From contig SCRO01000077.1 in assembly GCA_004298505.1 (NCBI GenBank), positions 1 through 33,032 on the forward strand: 33,032 nucleotides of DNA, written 5' to 3'. The notes below the pieces were generated by a model that worked only from the letters and a program-made list of their open reading frames with translations, was not told the origin of the DNA and searched no databases. This DNA comes from Rhodanobacter sp. Its GTDB lineage: Bacteria > Pseudomonadota > Gammaproteobacteria > Xanthomonadales > Rhodanobacteraceae. Positions 9,114 through 22,067 of the stretch are shown one piece after another. The position numbers were made by a program, and so were the translations under genes. How positions within the stretch are numbered: the first letter of the stretch is position 1; the number at the start of each line of letters is the position of its first letter.

Positions 9114-10427
9114 CCCGAACGAGATTACGTGTGGTGCTGGCCGTCGCCAGCGCGCTGGTGACCTTCACGGCAATCGCCACCGAAGCCCCCCACCAGGCAG
9201 GCAGCAACATGCTCGGCTTTACGCCCGCCAGCGCCGCCGCCCAGCTCAGTCTGGAGCAACGCTTCGATGCCCAGCTCGACCCCGCCGACCAGCACGCCTG
9301 GATGAAACAGATGTCGTCCGAGCCGAACCAGGTCGGTTCGCCGTATGACAAGGCGAATGCCGAGTCCATGCTGAAAAAGTTCCGCGAATGGGGCTGGGAC
9401 GCGCATATCGAGCAGTTCGACGTGCTGTATCCGACGCCGAAGAAGGTGGCGCTGGAATTGCTCGGCCCGCGTCCATTCACCGCCACCCTGCATGAGCCGC
9501 CGATCCCCGGCGATGCCAGCTCCAGCCTGCCCGGCGCGTTGCCGCCTTACAACGTCTACGGCGGCAACGGCGACGTCACCGCCGAAGGCGTGTAGCGCGG
9601 CTCGGTGGCAGACATACAAGCAGTACCCCGGCGACCCGCTCACCCCCGGCATCGGCTCCACGCCCGGTGCCAAGCACCTCGCGATCAAGGATGCGAAGAC
9701 AGTGCTGAAGATCCCGGTGCTGCCGATCTCCTATGCCGACGCCACGCCGTTGCTGCAAGCGCTGGGTGGCCCGGTGGCCCCAGCCAACTGGCGCGGCTCG
9801 CTGCCGTTGACCTATCACGTCGGACCAAGCTCGGCGAAAACACACCTGACCGTGCTGTCGGACTGGAGCCGCAAGCCGATCTACGACGTGATCGCGAAAA
9901 TCAAGGGCACGACCGCGCCGGATCAATGGATCATTCGTGGCAACCACCACGATGGCTGGGTCTTCGGCGCCTGGGATCCGCTGGCCGGCAATGTCGCCCT
10001 GATGGCCGAAGCCAAGGCCATCGGCGGCCTGCTCAAGCAGGGCTGGCGGCCAAAGCGCACGCTGGTCTACGCCAGTTGGGACGGCGAGGAGCCGGGCCTG
10101 CTCGGTTCCACCGAATGGGCCGAGACGCATGCGCAGGAGCTGCAGGCCAAGGCCGTGCTGTATGTCAATTCGGACACCAACGGACGCGGCTTCCTCGGCG
10201 CTGGCGGCAGCCATTCGCTGCAGCACCTGGTCAACCAGGTCGCTGCTGGCGTGACCGATCCGCAAACCCACGTCAGCGTGAGGGAACGCCTGCGTACGCG
10301 CATGATGATCCAAGGCAGCAACAGGGATGCGACCCTGGACGCTGGTAGCCGCCGGCGCGTTGCGGCACTGGCGGCGCGCGTTCGGAAGCTGATCGACGGC
10401 GCGTCGCCGGCCGGTCTCAGTCCGTGA
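9110..10427 (+). pseudogene. Broken M28-family (glutamate carboxypeptidase II-like) peptidase gene
   Basis: The 5' part (9110-9595) encodes a signal peptide and the start of an M28 peptidase (QMSSEPNQVGSPYDKANAES, FDVLYPTPKKVALEL) and stops at TAG 9593-9595. The next codons encode RGSVADI, then the frame shifts into YPGDPLTPGIGSTPGA. The piece between the stop and RGSVAD, normally the protease-associated segment, is missing. The metal-binding core survives as NHHDGWVFGAWDPLAGN and SWDGEEPGLLGSTEW, but the sequence breaks again near 10300, so the third metal ligand and the dimerisation domain are lost. The last bases overlap the end of proA. At least two deletions and one frameshift rule out a working enzyme. 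Confidence 0.88.
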
Positions 10428-11709
10428 GCTTGGGGGCAGCTGTGGAGATTCGGCTTTCGGCGTGCCGCACCTGTCCTTCCCCGCGCAGCACGAAGCGCTC
10501 GATCGTCAGCGCCTCCGCGCCCATCGGCCCGTATGCGTGCAGACGCGTGGTGGAGATGCCGATCTCGGCGCCCAGACCCAGCTCGCCGCCATCGCTGAAG
10601 CGCGAGGAGGTATTCACCATCACCACCGCCGAGCGCAGCGCATGCACGAAGCGTTCGGCGACCTCCGGGTCTTCGGTGGCGATCACTTCGGTGTGGTCCG
10701 AACCGTAGCGGCGGATATGCGCGAGCGCCTCCTCCAGGCTGTCCACCACGCCCACCGTCAGCTTGAGGCTGAGAAACTCGGCGGCGAAATCGTCATCGTT
10801 GGCCGGCGCCATCCCCGGGCAAAGCAAGCACGAACGCTGGTCGCCAAGCAGTTCCACGCCGCGTTGCTGCAAGGCTTTTGCCGCGCGCGGCAGAAACACT
10901 GCGGCGACATCGGCATGCACCAGCAGGGTCTCCAGCGCATTGCAGGCAGACGGGCGCGAGACCTTGCCGTCGATCAGGATGTCCAGTGCCTTGTCCAGGT
11001 CGGCATGGGCATCGACGTAGAGATGGCACACGCCCTTGTAGTGCTTGATCACCGGCACGCGCGCGTGCTCGGTGACGAAGCGGATCAGGCCCTCGCCACC
11101 GCGCGGGATAATCAGGTCGACGATGTCGGACAACTGCATCAACTCGAGCATCGCCTCGCGGCTGAGGTCGTCCAGCAGCATCAGCGCGTGTTCGGACAGG
11201 CCAGCCTCACGCAAGGCGCCGCGCAGGCAGGCGGCGATCGCCTGATTGGAGCGTATGGCCTCCGAGCCACCGCGCAGAATCACCCCGTTACCGGCCTTGA
11301 GACACAGCGCCGCGGCATCGGCGGTAACGTTGGGGCGTGCCTCGTAGATCATCGCGATCACGCCCAGCGGGACGCGCACGCGCTCGATCGTGAAACCCTT
11401 GCTCGAGCGCTCGCTGCGCGTCACCTGACCGACCGGGTCGGGGAGCTCGGCCACCTGGCGCAGGGCTTCGGCAATGCCGTGGACGCGCCCCTCATCCAGC
11501 GCGAGCCGATCGAGCATGGCTTCGCCGAGGCCTTTCTCGCGTGCTGCTTGCATGTCTTTGGCGTTAGCCGCCAGGATCGTCGTGGTCTGTGCGTCGAGTG
11601 CGTCGGCCATTGAGCGCAGCAAGCTGTTCTTGGCATCGGTCGACAGCCCGGCAACCTGCACGGCCGCTTGCTGGCAAAGAAGCGCGGCATCGCGCACGGA
11701 CCCATTCAT
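10417..11709 (-). CDS. proA: Glutamate-5-semialdehyde dehydrogenase (gamma-glutamyl phosphate reductase)
   Basis: The 430-aa enzyme reduces gamma-glutamyl phosphate to glutamate-5-semialdehyde with NADPH, the second step of proline synthesis. Conserved blocks are [41 protein letters not shown] and [27 protein letters not shown] carries the catalytic Cys256, and [20 protein letters not shown] lies near the C-terminus. The start codon overlaps the stop of the upstream proB (ATGA around 11706-11709), so translation is probably coupled. It is the last gene of the arginine-proline run. Confidence 0.96.
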
Positions 11710-12869
11710 GAAATCACTCCCGAATCAATGGTGACGACCAGGTCGTCGCGATGCACGATGCTCTCGCCGTAGCTGTAACCGAGCCGCTGCCGGATATCGC
11801 GCGTATGACTGCCCGCGAGCTGGTTGATCTCGGCGGCACCGTACTGGGTGATGCCCCGGGCGACAACATAGGGCTCGCCATCGGGACTGTCGCCCACGAT
11901 CTCGACCATGTCGCCTCGATGGAACTCGCCGACCGCGTCGATAACGCCCTTGGGCAACAGCGACGCGCCGCCCTCCCTGAGCGCACGCGCTGCGCCGGCG
12001 TCGACATGGATGCAGCCTGGCACCGCCGGCACCTGCAGCAACCAGTACTTGCGCGCCTGCATGCGGGTGGCGCTGGTGCGCAGCAAGGTGCCATGCAGCA
12101 AGTCGCGTGACAGCAAGTTGACCACCTCGCCATCGCGGCCATTGAACAGGATGGTCTGGATACCGGCTGCGGCGGCCTTCTCGGCGGCTTCCAGCTTGGT
12201 GCGCATGCCGCCGGTGCCGACCTGGGTGCCGGCGGCACCGGCCATGCCCATGATCGCGGCGGTCAGTTCGTGCACTTCGTCGATCGGCTGGGCATCGGGA
12301 TTGCTGCGCGGGTCGGCCGTGTACAGGCCATCGATGTCGGTAGCGATCAACAGCATGTCGGCATCGACCAGCGCGGCGACGATGGCGGCCAGGTTGTCGT
12401 TGTCGCCCAGGGTGAGCTCGTCCACCGCCACGGTGTCGTTCTCGTTCACCACCGGCATCACGTTGTAGGCGAGCAACTCGCTCAGGGTGGCGCGGGCGTT
12501 GAGATAGCGGCGCCGGTCGCGCAGGTCGTCATGGGTCAGCAGCACTTGCGCCAGTGGGCGGTCGAACAGGCGTTGCCACAAGGCCACGGTTTGGGTCTGG
12601 CCCAGCGCGGCCATCGCCTGTCGCGCGGCGTTGCTGGTGTCTTCCGGCAGATGCTGCATCAGCAGGCGCCCGGCCGCGACAGCGCCGGACGATACCAGCA
12701 CGATCTCGCGACCGGAGGCATGACACGATGCGATGAACTGTGCCAGGCCCAGTGCATAACGGGTGCTCAAGCCACCGCTGTCGGCAGCGAGCAGGCTGCT
12801 GCCCACCTTGAGTACGGCACGCCGCCATGGCGGCACGGTTTGCTGGCGAAATTTTCGTAGCTGGGTCAT
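11706..12869 (-). CDS. proB: Glutamate 5-kinase, operon copy next to proA
   Basis: The 387-aa enzyme phosphorylates glutamate at the gamma-carboxyl, the first and feedback-controlled step of proline synthesis. The amino-acid-kinase domain shows [49 protein letters not shown] and [19 protein letters not shown] domain follows from about residue 290 ([25 protein letters not shown]). The start ATG 12869 has GAGG a few bases upstream; the open frame extends back into the other proB but without kinase-like sequence. The stop overlaps proA. This is one of two tandem ProB proteins; its coupling to proA suggests it is the ancestral partner. Confidence 0.94.
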
Positions 12870-13014
12870 CGTCCTCGCGCAGGTCGGCATTGAAAACTTA
12901 TCTACTGTGGTATGGGGATGATGATCGCGATTGCAACCGCGAAGCGACCGGACCATCGCGCTGCATCCTGGTGAACTGCCTGCCTGCGGCAGCGTTGAGC
13001 AGGCGCAGCAAGCA

Positions 13015-14166
13015 TCAAGCGATGCCTGGCAGCAGGTGATCGGGCAGGTTCGCCAGATCGTCACGATGCACCACCTCGGCGCCGTAGCTGTAACCGAGCA
13101 GGGACTCGATTTCGCGACTGTGCCGTCCAACCAGGCGGCGTACCTCGGCCGCGGCGTACTGACTCAGGCCGCGCGCGATCCGGTGCTCATCGATGTCGAC
13201 GATCTCCACCAGATCACCACGCTGGAACTCACCGTCGGCCGCGATGATGCCCCCCGGCAGCAGCGACGCATGACCGCGACTGAGCGCTCTCGCGGCGCCA
13301 CCGTCAACGCGAATACGACCGCTCGCCGTGGGGGCATGCAGCAGCCAGTATTTGCGCGCCTGCATGCGCCCGTGTGGCGCGCAGACTAGGGTGCCGCGTA
13401 GTCGTCCTTCGGTCAATACCTGCACCGCGTCCGCATCGCGGCCGTTGAAAAGCACGGTCGGAATTCCCGCCGCGCCAGCCTTCTCCGCGGCCTCCAGCTT
13501 GGTGCGCATGCCGCCGGTACCGACCGCACTGCCACTGCCGCCAGCCATCGCCAGCACCGCCGGCGACATCGCCTCGACCCGCGCGATCGGAGTAGCTGCG
13601 GGATCGCGCCGTGGATCGGCGCTGTACAAGGCGTCGACGTCGGAGGCGATCAGCAACAGATCGGCATCCACCAGCGCAGCGACGATTGCCGCGAGATTAT
13701 CGTTGTCGCCAAGCTTGAGTTCATCCACCGCCACGGTATCGTTCTCGTTGACCACCGGCAGCGCCCCCAACGCCAACAGGCCTTGCAGGGTCGCCCGCGC
13801 ATTGAGATAGCGGCGACGATTGCGCAGATCGTCATGGGTCAGCAGGACTTGCGCCACCGGCCGTGCCGACAGCGACTGCCACAACACGATCATTGGCGCC
13901 TGACCCAGCGCAGCCATCGCCTGGCGTGCAGCCAGATCGCGGCCCGGTGCTGCTCGCGCGTGCAACAGCGCGCGGCCGGCAGCCACCGCACCGGAAGACA
14001 CCAGCACCACCTGTCGACCAGCGGCATGGCTGGCGGTAATGAACGCGGCCAGCGCCGTGACGAAGCGCGGCGTGAGGCCGCCACCATCGGCAGCCAGCAG
14101 GCTGCTGCCAACCTTGAGCACGGCGCGTCGCCATGTCGGCAGGACTTGAATTGGCAGCTGGTTCAT
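13015..14166 (-). CDS. proB: Glutamate 5-kinase, second tandem copy
   Basis: The 383-aa protein begins [20 protein letters not shown] and has every kinase motif of its neighbour ([55 protein letters not shown]) and a complete PUA domain. By eye the two agree at roughly two thirds of positions, with differences spread throughout, so the duplication is not recent and both copies look functional. It lies 139 bp after argH and 145 bp before the other proB. The two may differ in proline feedback sensitivity. An upstream extension to 14316 is possible but unlike any ProB N-terminus. Confidence 0.92.
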   Translation of the reverse strand: MNQLPIQVLPTWRRAVLKVGSSLLAADGGGLTPRFVTALAAFITASHAAGRQVVLVSSGAVAAGRALLHARAAPGRDLAARQAMAALGQAPMIVLWQSLSARPVAQVLLTHDDLRNRRRYLNARATLQGLLALGALPVVNENDTVAVDELKLGDNDNLAAIVAALVDADLLLIASDVDALYSADPRRDPAATPIARVEAMSPAVLAMAGGSGSAVGTGGMRTKLEAAEKAGAAGIPTVLFNGRDADAVQVLTEGRLRGTLVCAPHGRMQARKYWLLHAPTASGRIRVDGGAARALSRGHASLLPGGIIAADGEFQRGDLVEIVDIDEHRIARGLSQYAAAEVRRLVGRHSREIESLLGYSYGAEVVHRDDLANLPDHLLPGIA

Positions 14167-14305
14167 GCAGCACCCGGGGTTCGCTCGCGCTGGCGCTTGG
14201 GCGCACAGATCAGCATGAACCGGAGCTCTGCGCGGCAAGCACCGCTGCATTGATCGTTGCGCGCGTTGCCCGTACTGATAAACGGCATGACCTGCATTCC
14301 CTTCT

Positions 14306-15601
<1,296 letters not shown>

Positions 15602-15624
15602 GGTCTGTCCTTCGCTCGGTGCTC

Positions 15625-15712
15625 CGTAGGCGCCCGCTGGCGGGCGATGCCGTTGGTCTGATGCACGATGAAGAATCGGATCAAGAGCATCGCCCGCGAG
15701 CGGGCTCCTACG
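15625..15712. repeat. Inverted pair of REP palindromes between argC and argH
   Basis: Two units of about 26 bp in opposite orientation, at 15625-15650 and 15687-15712, carry CGTAGG.GCCCGC..GCGGGCGATGC. Each folds on itself through CCCGC/GCGGG and the two also pair with each other. The second unit overlaps the last bases of argC, whose stop codon is 15710-15708. Such pairs often stabilise or reduce downstream mRNA within an operon. Confidence 0.8.
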
Positions 15713-16694
15713 TCGGTTGTTGGTCGTTTACGGCTGGTGATTCGATCGGAATCGCGGTGTATTCGTCCACACCGATCGCGCGGTTGATGTTCTGCATCGC
15801 CTGGGTGGCGGCACCCTTGAGCAGATTGTCCAGCGTCGCCACGATCACTACGCGCCTGCCGTCGGCCGCCATCGCAAAGCCACCGATCTCAGCCTGGTGG
15901 CGATGCGCAATCCGGCTGACCCAGGGCGCCTCGTCGGACACATGGACCAACTTCTCACCGTCGTACGCCGCACGAAAGCGCTGCAACACCTCCTCGCGCT
16001 GCAGCGGGCGGGCGAGGTACAGGTTGCTGGTGACGGTAAGTCCGCGAAAGTGCGGTGCCACATGCGGCATGAACTCCACGGGTATGCCAAGTCGAAACGA
16101 GGCTTCCTTCTCGTGCGTGTGCCCGGTGAGCGCATACGGGATCAGGTTGTCGCGCAGCTTGTCCGGGTCGTTCTTGTCCGAGGGTGTAGTACCTGCGCCG
16201 GAGTAGCCGGACACGCCAAAGCACACTGGCGGCGCGGCCAGCAGGTCCTTCAGCGGCGCAATGGCCAGCTGCATGGCAGTCGCATAGCAGCCCGGGTTGC
16301 TGATTCGTCGCTCACCGCGCCAGAGCTCGCGGGTGAGCTCCGGCAGGCCGTAGTACCAGCGTTCGTCGAAACGGAAATCGGCCGACAGGTCCAGGATCAG
16401 TGGATCGACACCGGCCGCGTCGAACGCATCCACGCAGGCGCCGGCCTTGCCGTTGGGCAGCGCCAAGATCACCACGTCGGCACCAAGTTTCGGCAGGTCC
16501 TCGGGCGCGGGCGCGCTGTAGCAGAGGTCACCGTGGTACTCGGCAACGTGGGCGTCGACGCGCTGGCCGTCCAGCTCGCGCGAGGAGACGAAGGCCAGCT
16601 CCAGCGCGGGATGCGCCGCAATCATGCGGATCAGCTCCGTACCGGTGTGGCCCCGCGCGCCAACAATGCCAATGCGCTTTGTGCTGCTATCCAT
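15708..16694 (-). CDS. argC: N-acetyl-gamma-glutamyl-phosphate reductase
   Basis: The 328-aa enzyme reduces N-acetylglutamyl phosphate to the semialdehyde with NADPH. The nucleotide-binding N-terminus is [18 protein letters not shown], and the catalytic cysteine is Cys136 in [37 protein letters not shown] and [15 protein letters not shown] are further family blocks. The start lies 3 bp past the stop of the NAGS/K gene. The stop is inside a REP unit. Confidence 0.95.
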
Positions 16695-16697
16695 GAC

Positions 16698-18023
16698 TCA
16701 GTCCATCAGGGTGGGTTGACGTCGCGCGCAATGTGTCACGCAGCGGAAAATCGTGTCCAGATCGTCGATGCCATACCAGAACACCTTCCAGCGCGGCTGC
16801 TTGATGCAGCCATCGGACTCGGCGTAGTAGAACGGGTTCACGGCGTTGCCGTGGCGCGAGCGCCAGAACAGCCGCGGGTTCTGCTCACGCATCACCTGCC
16901 ACACGGCACGGCCCAGACCCTCGCCCTGCGCATCGTCGAGCACTGCGAACTTGTCCAGGTATACGAGCCCCTCTTCCTTGATGAGTATCATCGCGGTTCG
17001 ATAGTTCTCGCTGACATAGATGCGAAACGGGACCGTGCGCTCGAAGTAATCCGCCACCAGGGTACGGCCAAAACTCGACTCGATCAGCCCGCGCATGCGC
17101 GAGCGGTCGATGTCGGCCCACGAATCGAATTGCAGCACTTTCTCGCCGCGCCGGACCAGAGTGCCCGACCCCTTGTGGGTGAACAGTTCCTTGGCCAGTT
17201 CGGACGGTCGGGTGATCGACACCGACGAGGTCAACGGCAGGTCCGCCAGCAGGTCGGCGATCTGGCGGATCTTCAGCCGCATGCCACCGTTGAGCCACGG
17301 CTGCGCCATCAAGTGCTCGAGCTCGGTGCTGAGGTTGATCGAGTCAATCAGCTTGCCCTTGTCATCGAGCAAGCCGCCCGTGCCGGTGAGGAAGATGATC
17401 TTGTACGGCCGCAGCACGCGCACCAGTTCATTGGCGGCGATATCGGCATTGATGTTGAGGATCTGCCCTTCATCCGTTTCGCCCAGGCTGGCGATCACCG
17501 GGATCGAGTTCGCGCGCAGGCTGGCCTCGATCGGCGCGAGCTGGACACTGCGCACCTTGCCGACCAGGCCGTAGGTGTCGCGATCCAGATAATCGGCGCT
17601 GAACACGCCACTGCCCACCGAAGTGGCGCGGGTATCCATCGACTGCAACGCCTCGACCAGCTTCAGGTTCTGCTGCTGGAACACGCGGCGCACGATACCC
17701 AATGATCTTGGCGACGTCACCCGCAAACCATCGATGGTGTGCTTCTCGATGCCGGCGGCGGCCAGCTCCGCGTCCAGCTGCGGGCCGGCGCCGTGCAGCA
17801 CGATCGGCGTCAGCCCCACCTGCTGCAGGAAGGTCAGCGACGAGGCCAGGTCGACCAGTTCGTCGCGCAGCACCGCCCCCCCGACCTTGACCACGGCGAA
17901 GCGTTTGGCATCGACCTCGGAGAAGCGCTTGAGGTACTGCTGGATTTCCTTCGCGCTGCCCATGCTCGAAAGCAACCGCACGATGGTTTGCCGCGTGTTG
18001 TTATGAGTCTTGCGCGTTTCCAT
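16698..18023 (-). CDS. argB: Bifunctional N-acetylglutamate synthase/kinase (ArgA-ArgB fusion)
   Basis: The 441-aa protein joins an amino-acid-kinase domain (about 1-290) to a GNAT acetyltransferase domain (about 300-440). The kinase part has [43 protein letters not shown] and [16 protein letters not shown]. The acetyltransferase part has [23 protein letters not shown], where the QGEGLGRA loop binds acetyl-CoA, and [16 protein letters not shown]. This architecture and length match the Xanthomonas/Xylella NAGS/K, which makes and then phosphorylates N-acetylglutamate and is inhibited by arginine. It replaces separate argA and argB genes. The deacetylase gene ends 15 bp upstream. Confidence 0.94.
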
Positions 18024-18038
18024 GTTTATTCCTTGCGT

Positions 18039-19166
18039 TCATCCCTGAACGCGAGAGTCAAAAACCGGCCGTCCGTGGCCGGACTCTTCAATGATTCGAT
18101 AAACCGTTTGCACATAACGCTCAAGCTGGTCCAGCGCGACCCATTCATCCGCGCTGTGTGCCTGAGCGATGTCGCCAGGGCCGTAGACGAAGGCGGTGTA
18201 ACCGGCAGCGGAAAAAAGCGCTGCCTCGGTCCAGAAATCCACCGCGTTGCCGACCGGGATGCCGAGATCGTCGGCCAGATCGCGGGCAAGCAGGCGGTTC
18301 GCCTCGGCATTGGCGGTGTCACCAGCCGGCAGCGAGGGACCGCGAAACGTTTCGGAAAACTCCGCCGGATGGGGTTCCACCAGCGACCGGAAGCTTGCCA
18401 GCAGGCAGTCGGGATCCATCGTCGGCAACGGCCGCATGCCGAAGCGGAGCTCCGCGCTGGGCGCGATCATGTTCGCCTTGATGCCGCCTTCGACGCGGCC
18501 GATGTTGAAGCGCAGGCCGGTCAATCCACCAAAGCGCTCATGCGCCTGGGCTGCCACGAAATCCAGCGCGGCATTGCCCCAGCGCAGCACCTGGTGCAAC
18601 GCGCTGTCGCCGGGCTTCTGCTCACCCGCGGCATGCCCGGCGTGGCCGGCGAAGCGCATCAGCACCGACTGGATGCCGCGATGCGCGAGGACAGCTTCAC
18701 CCCGGGTCGGCTCGGCCACGATCACGGCCGTGTAAGCGTGCGGTTCGTGCAGGAAGCCGGCAATGCAACGTGCATCGTTGGCTTCCTCATCGGTCGAGAA
18801 CAACAGCGCCAGTGGCCCGTCACTGGCATTCGCCGCCGCCAGCAAGGCAGCCGCGGCGCCCTTGATGTCACAGGCACCGAGGCCCACCGCGCGATCGGCA
18901 GTCAACCGCAACGTATGCGGATCGGCCGTCCACCCCGGCGAGCCCGGCACGGTGTCCAGGTGCACGTTGAACAGGTATTTCGCCTCGCCGCGCACGGCGT
19001 GCATCGCCACCGCGCCAGCGCCGAAATCGGTCACCGTGATCGCAAACCCCGGCAACTGCGCACGCAGATAATCGAAAATGCCCCCGGTATCGATCGCCCG
19101 CGGTGGATTGCAGGTGTCAAACGCCACCAGCGCACGCAGGTGCTCCAGCGTCGCGTCGAGCAACAC
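18039..19166 (-). CDS. argE: N-acetyl-L-citrulline (or ornithine) deacetylase, M20 family
   Basis: The protein of about 375 aa removes acetate from the intermediate made by the acetylornithine carbamoyltransferase, so acetylcitrulline is the expected substrate. Metal-site motifs are FNVHLDTVPGS, GACDIKGAAAALLAA, FSTDEEANDARC, VAEPTRGE and AQAHSADEW. There is no ATG: the frame begins near GTG 19166 (VLLDATLEHLRALVAFDT), or TTG 19163, in phase with relatives. The ribosome binding region is made of GGAAATC repeats, so translation strength may depend on them. The frame stays open far upstream inside argG only because of base composition. Confidence 0.88.
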   Translation of the reverse strand: MLLDATLEHLRALVAFDTCNPPRAIDTGGIFDYLRAQLPGFAITVTDFGAGAVAMHAVRGEAKYLFNVHLDTVPGSPGWTADPHTLRLTADRAVGLGACDIKGAAAALLAAANASDGPLALLFSTDEEANDARCIAGFLHEPHAYTAVIVAEPTRGEAVLAHRGIQSVLMRFAGHAGHAAGEQKPGDSALHQVLRWGNAALDFVAAQAHERFGGLTGLRFNIGRVEGGIKANMIAPSAELRFGMRPLPTMDPDCLLASFRSLVEPHPAEFSETFRGPSLPAGDTANAEANRLLARDLADDLGIPVGNAVDFWTEAALFSAAGYTAFVYGPGDIAQAHSADEWVALDQLERYVQTVYRIIEESGHGRPVFDSRVQG

Positions 19167-19167
19167 C

Positions 19168-19195
19168 GATTTCCGATTTCCGATTTCCGATTCCC
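19168..19195. repeat. 7-bp tandem repeat at the argG/argE junction
   Basis: GATTTCC occurs three times without mismatch (19168-19188), followed by GATTCCC. On the coding strand this is GGAAATC repeated directly ahead of the GTG start of the deacetylase gene, so it supplies the purine-rich ribosome binding region. Confidence 0.85.
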
Positions 19196-19198
19196 CGC

Positions 19199-20437
19199 TC
19201 ACGAACGATTGACCTCGGCCCACAGCGTTGAGCTCATGCCGAACAGCTTGATGAAGCCTTCGGCTTCTTCCACGCCCCAGTCCGCCGACTGCGCATAAGT
19301 AGCACCCTTGGCGTTGAGGATATGCTTCGACTCCACCGCTACCGCACCAACACTGCCACCCTGGGTTTCCAGCGTCACCGTACCGTTGACGGTGGACTGG
19401 CTCGACCTCAGGAACGCTTCGAGATCGGTCTTCAGCGGATCGTGGAAAAAACCCTCGTAGACCAGCTCCACCCACTTGCGCGCCACCTCGGGTTTGAAGC
19501 GGTTCTGCTGCTTGCTGAGCACGGCCTCTTCCAGGGCGCGGTGTGCGGCGAGCAGTGCGGTCAGGCCCGGTGCCTCGAAGATAATGCGGCCCTTCAGGCC
19601 GATCGTGGTATCGCCGGTATACAGGCCGCGGCCCACGCCGTATTGCGCAAACAGGCCATTCAACTTTGCCAGCATGACGTGTCCGGCCATCTTCTCGCCA
19701 TCCAGCGTCACCGCCTCGCCACCCTCGAAACCGATCCTCACCTTCAGCGGTTTGGACGGCCATTCGGCACGTGGTTTGCACCAGCCCACCGCACCAGCGC
19801 CGGGCGCTTGCCACTGGTCGATTTCGCCGCCGGACATGGTCAGGCCGAGCAGGTTCTCGTTGATGGTGTAGGCCTGCTGCCTGGCGCGTACGCCAAAGCC
19901 ACGCTCCTCCAGGTACTTCTGCTCGTAGGCGCGCGTCTGTGTGTGCTCCTTCTGGATCTCGCGGATCGGCGCCACGATTTGGTATTCACCCCGCGCTTTC
20001 ACCGTCAGATCGAAGCGAACCTGATCATTCCCCATGCCGGTGCAACCATGTGCGATCGCCTTCGTCCCGAGTTCGCCCGCGCGCTTGAGCGCCGCCCCGA
20101 CGATCAGGTAACGGTCCGACACCAGCAGCGGGTATTGGCCCTGGTAACCCTCGCCCGCCCATACGAACGGCTTGACGAAACCAGCCCAGATCGCCGGACC
20201 GCCGTCGACTGTGACATGGCTGGCCACGCCCAGTTCCTTCGCACGGCTTTCGATGAACGCGCGCTCTTCGGCGTCCACGCCGCCGGTATCGGCGAACACG
20301 GTATGTACGGCCCAGCCGCGCTCCTGCAGGTAAGGCACGCAGAAGCTGGTGTCAAGGCCACCTGAGAAAGCCAGGACGATGTCCTTGCTTTCGGGAATGG
20401 GGAATGGGGAATCGGGAGTGGGAAATGCGTTGGACAT
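19199..20437 (-). CDS. argG: Argininosuccinate synthase with repeat-encoded N-terminal extension
   Basis: The 412-aa enzyme ligates citrulline and aspartate using ATP. The PP-loop is [12 protein letters not shown] at about 20-31; [29 protein letters not shown] and [12 protein letters not shown] follow. Relatives begin [12 protein letters not shown], but here SKDIVLAF is preceded by [16 protein letters not shown], encoded by 7-bp repeats, and no start codon remains at the usual place. ATG 20437 is the best start; a TTG lies just before it at 20440. No strong ribosome binding site is visible. The gene is 86 bp after the carbamoyltransferase gene. Confidence 0.94.
20393..20427. repeat. Five 7-bp repeats inside the 5' end of argG
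   Basis: The units on the plus strand are GGGAATG, GGGAATG, GGGAATC, GGGAGTG and GGAAATG. They encode residues 4-15 of the argG product (roughly [12 protein letters not shown]). Gain or loss of one unit would shift the reading frame. Confidence 0.85.
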
Positions 20438-20500
20438 CAAGGTGTGCTCTGAATGGAAGGTTCGAATGTTTCCGGGAAAAGCGAGGGCGGCGTTTCAGCT

Positions 20501-20523: not shown

Positions 20524-21579
20524 TCATGGCGTCGCGACCAGCGACGCCATGACTGCTTTCTGCACGTGCAGGCGGTTTTCGGCTTCGTCGATGGCAATGC
20601 ACGCCGGTGAATCCATCACCGCGTCGGTGGCCTTGATGTTCCGGCGCAGCGGCAGGCAGTGACTGAACAGACCGTGGTTGGTCAACGCCATCTTCGCTTC
20701 GTCGACAATGAAATGCCGGTTCGCCTCGCGTATGGGTTTCTCCTGCTCCCACTTGCCAAAGAACGGCAGCGCACCCCAGCTCTTGGCGTAGACCACATCG
20801 GCGCCGGTGTAGGCTTCCTCGATGTCGTGACTGACCCTCAGCGAACCGCCGTTCTGCGTGGCATTCAGACGGCCAAATTCCATGTAGCGCTCGTCCAGCA
20901 CGTAGTCGGGCGTGGGGCACAGCAAGGTGACGTCCATGCCCATTCTGGTCGCGATCAGCAGTGCCGAGTTCGCCACCGCGGTATTCAACGGCTTGGGATG
21001 GTAGGTCCAGGTCAGCACATACTTCTTGTTCTGCAGGTCGCCCAGATGCTCCTTCAGCGCCAGCGCGTGGGCCAGTTCCTGGCAGGGATGGGTGATGGTT
21101 TCCATGTTGATCACCGGCACCGTGGCGTACTGCGCGAAGGCCTTGATCAGCTTGTCCTGGCGATCCACCGCCCAGTCCTGGAACTTCGGGAACGCACGCA
21201 CCGCGATCAGGTCGACGTAGCGCGACAGCACACGCGCCACTTCAGCGATGTGCTCCTCGCTATCGCCATCCATCACGCTGCCCACCTCGAACTCGATCGG
21301 CCAGGCATCCTTGCCCGGCGCCAGCACCACCGCATGTCCGCCCAGCTGGAACGCCCCCAGTTCGAAGCTGGTGCGAGTGCGCATCGAGGGATTGAAGAAC
21401 AGCAGCGCGACCGACTTGCCGGCCAGTTGCTGGCTGTTTTGTCGAGGACTCCCACCAGGGATGGCCGGTTCTTGCGCAGCGACGCGCATTTCCCGCTTGA
21501 ATTCAGCGGCCTGCTCCAGCAGCGCGTCGATCTCGGCGCGACTGTAATCCTGGGTGGTGATGAAATGTCGTGGTGCCAT
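20524..21579 (-). CDS. argF': N-acetylornithine carbamoyltransferase (acetylated-pathway ArgF')
   Basis: The 351-aa enzyme carbamoylates N-acetylornithine to N-acetylcitrulline. Motifs are FFNPSMRTRTSFELGAFQLGG (carbamoyl phosphate binding), INMETITHPCQELAHALAL, YVLTWTYHPKPLNTAVANSA and FSHCLPLRRNIKATDAVMDS. These match the Xanthomonas acetylornithine enzyme almost word for word rather than ordinary ArgF. Residues 33-50 (VAAQEPAIPGGSPRQNSQ) form an insertion absent from the Xanthomonas form that I recall. ATG 21579 lies 6 nt after GGAG at 21589-21586; another ATG is directly before it at 21582. It is the first structural gene of the operon, behind a probable attenuator. Confidence 0.95.
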   Translation of the reverse strand: MAPRHFITTQDYSRAEIDALLEQAAEFKREMRVAAQEPAIPGGSPRQNSQQLAGKSVALLFFNPSMRTRTSFELGAFQLGGHAVVLAPGKDAWPIEFEVGSVMDGDSEEHIAEVARVLSRYVDLIAVRAFPKFQDWAVDRQDKLIKAFAQYATVPVINMETITHPCQELAHALALKEHLGDLQNKKYVLTWTYHPKPLNTAVANSALLIATRMGMDVTLLCPTPDYVLDERYMEFGRLNATQNGGSLRVSHDIEEAYTGADVVYAKSWGALPFFGKWEQEKPIREANRHFIVDEAKMALTNHGLFSHCLPLRRNIKATDAVMDSPACIAIDEAENRLHVQKAVMASLVATP

Positions 21580-21602
21580 CATTTTCTCCAAGCCTCAAAC
21601 AC

Positions 21603-21629
21603 AAAAAAACCGGCGTAAAGGCCGGGTTT
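21603..21629 (-). terminator. Intrinsic terminator in the arginine operon leader
   Basis: On the minus strand, AAACCCGGC pairs with GCCGGTTT (one bulged base) around a short loop and is followed by seven U (21609-21603). It lies only 24 bp before the carbamoyltransferase start and reads in the direction of the operon, so it must be bypassed for expression. Its 5' arm is also complementary to the end of the leader ORF. Confidence 0.75.
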
Positions 21630-21662
21630 CGTCGTCGATACACGTGAAAAGCGCGCGACAGC

Positions 21663-21767
21663 CTACCCGGCCGAATGTCCAGTCATCGGTCGGCGCGCAC
21701 GCGACGTCATGCCAGCGGCCGCGCGGGCACTGGTGAGTATGGTGGCGGTATAGACGGCTGTAGACAT
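21663..21767 (-). CDS. Candidate leader peptide of the arginine operon
   Basis: A 34-codon frame begins MSTAVYTATILTSARAAAGM, contains TSRARRPMTGHSAG and stops at TAG 21665-21663. Three of four consecutive codons at 21701-21690 are Arg (CGT, GCG, CGC, CGA). A shorter start, ATG 21710, would give a 15-aa peptide. The segment after the Arg codons can pair with the segment at the stop codon, and the latter with the terminator's 5' arm. Ribosome binding sites are weak. The leader role is inferred from these structures, not from similarity. Confidence 0.5.
   Translation of the reverse strand: MSTAVYTATILTSARAAAGMTSRARRPMTGHSAG
21665..21693 (-). promoter_or_regulatory. Candidate 1:2 stem and antiterminator arm of the attenuator
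   Basis: Segment 1 (CCGACCGA, 21693-21686) overlaps the last Arg codon. It pairs, with one mismatch, with segment 2 (TCGGCCGG, 21674-21667). Segment 2 shifted by two bases (GGCCGGGT, 21672-21665) is perfectly complementary over 8 bp to the terminator arm (ACCCGGCC, 21627-21620). The two pairings exclude each other, which is the logic of a ribosome-controlled attenuator. Confidence 0.55.
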
Positions 21768-21862
21768 GCAGGTTCCAGGTAACTGGCCGACATCATGGCG
21801 AGATTTTCGCTGCCATGCAACAAAAAAAATCGGGTCCGCGGCAATCAGCCCCCCCGAAAACA

Positions 21863-21900: not shown

Positions 21901-22067
21901 CTAGCAGCCTGTCGGACTTTGGTGGTCGAGGCGAGAATTCGGCTGTGTGAGGACAGATTCCTGACGATTCGCCGGTCCATAGTGGTTCTGTGGACCAAGA
22001 ATCGGCGGGGATATGGACCACACAGGCGGATTCGCAGACCGGCCAGCAAAGTCCGACAGGCTGCTAG
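21901..22067. mobile_element. 167-bp MITE related to the IS1182-like element
   Basis: The element has 19-bp perfect inverted ends (CTAGCAGCCTGTCGGACTT at 21901-21919 and its complement at 22049-22067), and pairing resumes a little farther in. The ends equal the terminal repeat at 243-261. There is no coding capacity for a transposase; the interior has an imperfect stem around GGTCCA and TGGACC. The right end lies 6 bp from the stop codon of the glycine-zipper gene. CTAG at both edges may be a 4-bp target duplication. Confidence 0.85.

Follow-up and report, generated by a model that had tools for sequence, protein, structure and literature searches.

The orf34 leader of speF in Salmonella, also named SpeFL, is one of the described systems closest to the locus studied here. 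It has 34 codons with adjacent Arg codons and a conserved peptide core, ribosome progress along it under low or high arginine reshapes the RNA, and it acts via Rho, translation and RNase G decay on the ornithine decarboxylase gene (available text of PMC6386406). The attenuators of trp, his, thr, ilv and leu contain a leader ORF with codons for the amino acid of the pathway, mutually exclusive antiterminator and terminator structures, and a conserved complementary triple around the segments that form them, as is widely known and as the available part of PMC1262725 describes. The same part of that article gives T-boxes as RNA control for arginine. The arginine pathway is also the target of ArgR, which is a protein repressor (PMC5343134, available part). 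Searches of the open-licence PMC literature gave no paper with an arginine attenuator of the order to which Rhodanobacter belongs in its title or abstract opening.

We analysed a stretch of 33,032 nucleotides from Rhodanobacter sp. (GenBank assembly GCA_004298505.1, contig SCRO01000077.1), which is called the window. A preliminary description of the window had proposed that the region before argF' has the layout of ribosome-controlled attenuators such as trp and his. We consider it likely, with a probability of roughly 0.87, that the leader is a ribosome-mediated transcription attenuator, through which expression of the argF'-argG-argE-argB-argC-argH(-proB-proB-proA) cluster would follow the supply of arginine.

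Leader and gene cluster of the window

The features of the locus are listed in Table 1. The core codons had been described as a run of Arg codons. The short ORF (21767-21663) and its CGT-GCG-CGC-CGA codons (21701-21690) are present, but GCG encodes Ala, so that the core contains three Arg codons; one further Arg codon is located upstream in the leader ORF. The intrinsic terminator with seven U before the first gene is confirmed, and the last T of its T run (21609-21603) is separated from the ATG of argF' at 21579 by 23 nt. An in-frame ATG is also present at 21582. The reported 8-bp complementarity is likewise present in the window: GGCCGGGT (21672-21665) is a perfect 8-nt complement of ACCCGGCC (21627-21620).

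Table 1. Positions of the leader elements and of the downstream genes in the window
Feature	Position	Strand	Sequence or extent	Remark
Likely promoter	21792..21820	-	TTGCAT 21820-21815, 17-nt spacer, CATGAT 21797-21792	Read from sequence; predicted
Leader peptide ORF	21663..21767	-	34 codons, MSTAVYTATILTSARAAAGMTSRARRPMTGHSAG, then stop	Read from sequence
Control codons	21690..21701	-	CGT-GCG-CGC-CGA (R-A-R-R)	Presumed ribosome stall site
Segment 2	21665..21672	-	GGCCGGGT	Antiterminator 5' strand, overlaps ORF end; complement of segment 3
Inner hairpin	21634..21659	-	GUCG...CGAC	Within antiterminator loop; minimum-energy antiterminator fold of window
Segment 3	21620..21627	-	ACCCGGCC	Terminator 5' arm, common to terminator and antiterminator
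Segment 4 and U run	21603..21614	-	GCCGG 21614-21610, seven T/U 21609-21603	Intrinsic terminator 3' half
argF', N-acetylornithine carbamoyltransferase	20524..21579	-		NCBIfam NF003384, 587 bits
argG, argE, argB-type acetylglutamate kinase, argC, argH, two proB-like, proA	10417..20440	-		NCBIfam; downstream of argF', same strand

The predicted promoter is consistent with the distribution of TTGC: of the 151 rows of the alignment described below, 147 contain it at 22-62 nt 5' of the leader start, against 79.7 expected from shuffles. The genes from argF' to proA would be co-transcribed. A second copy of the leader is not found in the genome from which the window comes: seven more matches (L114-L120) are detected, the best with E 0.042, and none contains the core.

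Several other features are visible around the leader and in the cluster. On the minus strand, at 11706-13130 and 13015-14316 of the window, two proB-like genes for glutamate 5-kinase stand in tandem and are followed by proA; they show 64% identity across 369 aligned positions. Upstream of the leader promoter, at 21901-22067, an imperfect 49-nt inverted repeat is present with its arms 69 nt apart; it is 82% complementary, has the ends CTAGCAGCCTGTCGGAC and is MITE- or REP-like. In L008, L015, L017, L045, L072 and other Rhodanobacteraceae, extra short palindromes (CGCGGATCC..CCGCG and CCGGCCATCCATGGCCGG) are located between the terminator and argF', and the gap between these two is 135-149 nt in the five loci named.

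Conservation of the leader peptide and its codons

The argF'-chosen set consists of the best 80 of 570 ArgF'-protein matches, from named genomes, and the window (81 loci), and was picked by the ArgF' protein alone without regard to the leader. The selection tree contains 80 of these 81 loci. The alignment contains 151 rows (124 Rhodanobacteraceae and 27 from other families), which include 14 second copies of the same genomes and therefore represent 137 distinct loci. Codon, spacing and pair-type counts refer to the distinct loci, all others to rows. The leader-peptide profile supplied the 56 distinct loci that are not among the 81, so that the presence of the core in them is by construction.

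A leader with the core [AS]GMTSRARR is present 5' of argF' in all 81 loci of the argF'-chosen set (best 80 of 570 matches and the window); 79 of these leaders are detected by pattern search, and those of L065 and L080 in the translations. Across the 80 argF'-chosen loci of the tree, the eight codons of GMTSRARR have undergone 56 synonymous and no nonsynonymous changes, while codons 9-13, past the residue after RARR, have undergone 19 synonymous and 103 nonsynonymous changes. The corresponding numbers for 136 distinct loci from four families are 114 and 0 for GMTSRARR, and 37 and 221 for codons 9-13, which extend beyond the stop codon in the few loci with an early stop. The leader ORF is under coding selection.

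The non-Arg residues A, A, G, M, T, S and A are each invariant in 136 of 136 distinct loci; the two Ala among them that lie further upstream in the leader never vary. Outside this set, G is replaced by S in L198 and L209. The N-terminus of the leader varies among families, RARR is followed by P, L, R, C, N or T, and the ORF of L143 ends directly after the P of RARRP. The peptide around the Arg codons is nearly fixed in Rhodanobacteraceae and three related families, and it is conserved near the presumed stall codon, as arrest peptides require.

Conservation of the Arg codons in relatives had been set beforehand as a check of the proposed control. The three core Arg positions of the 136 distinct loci comprise 408 codons, and all but one of these (407) are CGT, CGC or CGA. 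The last core Arg codon is CGA in 134 of the 136 loci, and CGA accounts for only 41 of the 2565 Arg codons in their argF' genes. CGT, CGC and CGA are decoded by tRNA-Arg with the anticodon ACG. The genome from which the window comes encodes this tRNA, and also tRNA-Arg CCG and tRNA-Arg TCT.

At E 0.001, the leader profile has matches in 167 of the 299 genomes examined in the order, a count that includes the chance matches in families f9, f10 and f12 given below. Among 369 genomes of the class, seven match; the five strong matches (E 1e-13 or better) are all within the order. The argF' gene is located 81-384 nt downstream of the leader stop codon in all 71 core-carrying loci fetched with the peptide, which partly overlap with the 81 loci. 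The matches in L165 and L166, outside the order, and in L207 (f12) and L208 (f9) are rejected as chance matches, and argF' is absent from these loci. The match in L206 (f10, genome G201) is rejected as well: it lacks the core, and no ArgF' match is found in G201 at E 1e-20.

Pairing and covariation of the antiterminator and terminator

The 2:3 pairing, when examined by dinucleotide shuffling, gives p of approximately 0.02 for the window and p below 0.05 in 137 of 151 rows. In 54 chosen loci, the variable 2:3 pair is C-G in 28, U-A in 18, U-G in 4, and other or unpaired in 4, and the variable 3:4 pair is G-C in 33, A-U in 19, and other or unpaired in 2. The covariation score, the number of cells paired and the number of cells changed on both sides are above all 500 shuffles for both 2:3 and 3:4, and the paired fraction drops from 96-98% to 25-58% in slid controls. 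Neither the number of pairs with changes on both sides (1 and 2) nor the number of pair types in these 54 loci is above the shuffles, because only one or two positions vary on both sides. L141, L142, L149 and L150 are misaligned in one of the alignments (A4) and are kept in the counts. At the variable position of the 137 distinct loci, 131 pairs are Watson-Crick, 4 are wobble and 2 are mismatched. A-C or G-G mismatches are present in L132 and L133. On the tree, L143 and L154 are single tips in which both segments have switched; in a larger lineage of 22 tips, segment 2 shows one change at the base and segment 3 shows changes at several points inside.

A terminator-like hairpin followed by a T run is present in 151 of 151 rows, of which a stricter pattern missed L033 and L086. 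The predicted antiterminator and terminator are mutually exclusive, conserved and covarying. The inner hairpin GTCG..CGAC is present in 115 of 124 rows of Rhodanobacteraceae; it is absent from all 27 rows of other families and is therefore not a general part of the leader.

Segment 2 was searched with the pattern G-N-N-GG-N at 15-30 nt after CGA. GCCGGG starts 21 nt from CGA in the window, and this spacing is 21 nt in 122 of 137 distinct loci within the range searched. The evidence that segment 2 is tied to the codons and not to the stop codon rests on four early-stop loci, because in 121 of 137 distinct loci the stop codon, too, has a uniform distance from CGA (27 nt). In the four loci (L125, L129, L143 and L154), the stop codon comes as early as 6-18 nt after CGA; segment 2, which is located at or past it, is still complementary and is positioned 18-21 nt from CGA. 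In L200 and L203 (family f4), GGGUUUCG after the stop codon would, by eye, pair with CGAAGCCC of the terminator arm. Segment 2 has seemingly moved in these two loci, which suggests turnover of the antiterminator with its function kept.

The preliminary description had called for covariation in three stems, and the antiterminator and terminator are conserved and covary, but the third stem, 1:2, is weak everywhere. This competing stem, between 21693-21686 and 21674-21667, does exist in the window, but it contains one mismatch. Its longest unbroken pairing is 4-5 bp in 117 of 124 rows of Rhodanobacteraceae and in 21 of 27 rows of other families, as counted without a chance control, and a strong protector hairpin 1:2 is found in no family among the 151 rows. 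Such a hairpin is present in trp and is not universal among attenuators. The stem is unnecessary for the logic of the switch, so that its weakness does not exclude the leader from the attenuators.

Folding energies and ribosome models

The whole leader of 191 nt does not fold better than shuffles (z 0.29). The fold of the whole leader is therefore uninformative, and the case rests on conservation. With a model ribosome placed on CGA, pairing of segments 2 and 3 precedes the synthesis of segment 4 in 150 of 151 rows. A ribosome footprint with CGA in the P site would end just before segment 2. With the model ribosome at the stop codon, all 151 rows form the terminator, with segment 2 masked by construction in most of them. 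When the full length is folded to equilibrium and segment 2 is left free, 104 of 151 rows favour the terminator and 35 the antiterminator, so that antitermination would have to be kinetic and timing would matter. The terminator hairpin of the window is the weakest of the 151 rows (-9.1 kcal/mol, against a median of -14.9 kcal/mol), and position 21609 of its 3' arm is T in the window and a nearly invariant G in relatives. Control may therefore be leaky in the genome of the window.

Arg-run leaders in sister families

Families without GMTSRARR were reached via argF' and 38 loci were scored; L223-L228 and L253-L257, which are distant, partial or from family f12, are left out of this number. According to a fixed rule, a terminator and adjacent Arg codons in a suitably spaced ORF before argF' are present in 24 of 38 loci, or in 23 of 37 when L209, which has MTSRARR, is left out. 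Shuffles of the whole region predict no such locus, and the reverse strand has none. If shuffling is confined to the DNA 5' of the terminator, the expected share of passing loci is 31%, against 24 of 26 in the real sequences. The strict rule finds a terminator in 26 of the 38 loci, and L236 and L238 are those with a terminator only. By eye, a leader and a terminator missed by the rule are visible in L230, L233, L242, L246, L249 and L252, and a leader is not visible in six of the 38 loci (L211, L214, L221, L244, L248 and L251).

In many sister loci, an Arg leader of the classical kind precedes a CCCAGC/GCTGGG terminator, often with GCTGGG as segment 2. The Arg runs are RRRRR in L218 and L219, RRRR in L210, L229 and L215, RRLRRPR in L220, RRARRTRRP in L216 and RRVRRT in L231. 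The peptide is not conserved in the sister families, and the feature that they share is the adjacent Arg codons. These runs are the strongest independent support for arginine as the signal.

Distribution of ArgR

Arginine biosynthesis is usually described as ArgR-controlled, and the leader had been proposed to represent a different mode. This proposal agrees with the distribution of ArgR (PF01316), which is not found in the genome of the window nor in 291 of 299 genomes of the order; the same search is positive for 9 of 14 control genomes. The eight genomes of the order with ArgR all belong to family f12, in which no leader is found in L223-L225 by the rules used. In these three loci (L223, G011:C17; L224, G021:C52; L225, G030:C6), the carbamoyltransferase gene and ArgR, which is encoded on the other strand, are approximately 1.3 kb apart, an arrangement that agrees with the expected alternative mode of control. 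The absence of ArgR therefore extends beyond the GMTSRARR form of the leader and is in line with attenuation being widespread in the order. Not every argF' locus without ArgR has a leader, as none is seen in the six sister-family loci mentioned above. The leader would offer an explanation of the means by which arginine synthesis is controlled in a large part of a bacterial order that lacks a detected ArgR.

Relation to the small RNA Xoo5

Rfam detects nothing in the window at the gathering threshold. In a relaxed search of seven loci, Rfam RF02242 (Xoo5) matches L124 with 126 bits and L122 with 104 bits, and the copy of the window (L113) with 26.6 bits, which is below the cut-off of 50. RF02242 is over the cut-off in 56 of 299 genomes of the order, and the genome of the window is not among them. 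The match begins two bases before the AUG of the leader. Rfam types Xoo5 as an sRNA of Xanthomonadaceae.

According to the available text of Liang et al. 2011 (PMC3039613), sRNA-Xoo5 of Xanthomonas oryzae is 124 nt long, has a 5' end determined by 5' RACE, and is located between PXO_00354 and PXO_00353, the latter of which is listed as N-acetylornithine carbamoyltransferase. In the relatives L122 and L124, the match to Xoo5 is located at the same place before argF'. The Northern blots of the authors show bands of approximately 130 and 100 nt, with a pair of transcripts in early growth, of which the short one alone is seen at later stages, and the level of Xoo5 is unchanged without Hfq (PMC3039613). 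The ORF of Xoo5 would be nearly leaderless if the 124-position Rfam model equals the cloned RNA. In its available parts, PMC3039613 catalogues Xoo5 as an sRNA and does not describe the ORF, the terminator or a link to arginine, and its main text does not contain the words 'arginine', 'argF' or 'leader'. In a separate part of that study, the spots that decrease when sRNA-Xoo1 of Xanthomonas oryzae is deleted include those of PXO_00352 (argininosuccinate synthase) and of PXO_00353 (ArgF') (PMC3039613, Table 4).

Some of these data count against attenuation. The distance from two bases before the AUG to the U run is 156-159 nt in L122 and L126, and the cloned Xoo5 is 32-35 nt shorter. Seven sRNA deletions caused no change in growth in rich or minimal medium, and the expression of flanking genes is stated to be unaffected (available text of PMC3039613). 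Both the shortfall in length and the unaffected flanking genes speak against the reading of Xoo5 as an attenuator.

Proposed mechanism and alternatives

Transcription would start just 5' of the leader ORF, with the ribosome trailing RNA polymerase. A shortage of charged tRNA-Arg (anticodon ACG) would make this ribosome stall on CGY-GCN-CGY-CGA, with its leading edge just short of segment 2, so that 2:3 pairing would block the terminator and the cluster would be transcribed. When arginine is plentiful, the ribosome would advance and cover segment 2, 3:4 pairing would occur, and transcription would stop before argF'. The attenuator layout proposed earlier is supported by conservation, by covariation and by the Arg runs of the sister families, but not by the 1:2 stem. 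Compared with that earlier reading, the 1:2 stem is weak in all families, and the peptide itself is under strong selection in four of them.

Classical attenuators do not need selection on the leader peptide itself. The peptide around the Arg codons is nearly frozen in four families, and it is conceivable for this reason that the nascent chain adds to stalling, although we hold this idea only tentatively. A stronger form of it is that the nascent AxxA[AS]GMTSRARR itself, and not uncharged tRNA alone, stalls the ribosome, either in response to arginine or a pathway intermediate or constitutively, with the downstream RNA switch unchanged. The non-Arg residues A, A, G, M, T, S and A, which are as fixed as Arg (136 of 136 loci, 56 of them profile-found) while synonymous sites vary freely, point in this direction, as does the variation of the N-terminus and of the residues past RARR; the ORF may end right after the P of RARRP. 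However, the sister families conserve adjacent Arg codons and not the peptide, like plain codon-based attenuators, and CGA is held at the codon level (134 of 136), which the peptide alone would not require. We regard an arrest peptide of this kind as possible, at somewhat below an even chance. It may also be, though we would not call it probable, that a plain attenuator with a run of Arg codons became an arginine-tuned arrest peptide in an ancestor common to Rhodanobacteraceae, two related families and, presumably, Xanthomonadaceae. In this peptide, the 13-residue AxxA[AS]GMTSRARR and a nearly fixed slow CGA would let three Arg codons do the work of the four or five present in some sister families, in lineages in which ArgR is not found.

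It is very improbable that the leader RNA acts in trans as a small RNA, the class in which Xoo5 is catalogued, and is located before argF' by coincidence. The type given to RF02242 and the Northern bands of Xanthomonas oryzae (PMC3039613, available text) agree with a small RNA, but the leader is directly 5' of argF' in 81 of 81 argF' loci (best 80 of 570 and the window), argF' is downstream in 71 of 71 loci with the peptide core, the ORF is under coding selection, the terminator and antiterminator covary, and the RNA level is unaffected by loss of Hfq in the blots of the same authors. The strong amino-acid conservation of the core would also be compatible with a gene for a conserved small protein followed by an ordinary terminator and unrelated to the control of argF'. 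This explanation can hardly be correct: segment 2 tracks the sequence of the terminator, including four loci in which it is non-coding, the ORF can end right after RARRP (L143), and the sister families keep the Arg codons and not the peptide. According to the attenuator reading that we prefer, the catalogued 'sRNA' Xoo5 would be re-read as a coding leader.

Comparison with known systems

The leader of the window shares the pathway codons, the exclusive pair of structures and the complementary triple with the trp, his, thr, ilv and leu attenuators, and differs from them in that it would serve the arginine pathway, its peptide region is nearly fixed in four families, and it has no strong protector stem. 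The series from Arg-run leaders to a nearly frozen peptide is a natural one, in which codon-based and peptide-based stalling may be compared. The predicted target pathway is the same as that of the protein repressor ArgR, which is not found in the genome of the window. The leader resembles orf34 in its 34 codons, its adjacent Arg codons and its conserved core, and the progress of the ribosome at low and high arginine would likewise reshape its RNA; unlike orf34, it has an intrinsic terminator and precedes the genes of arginine biosynthesis.
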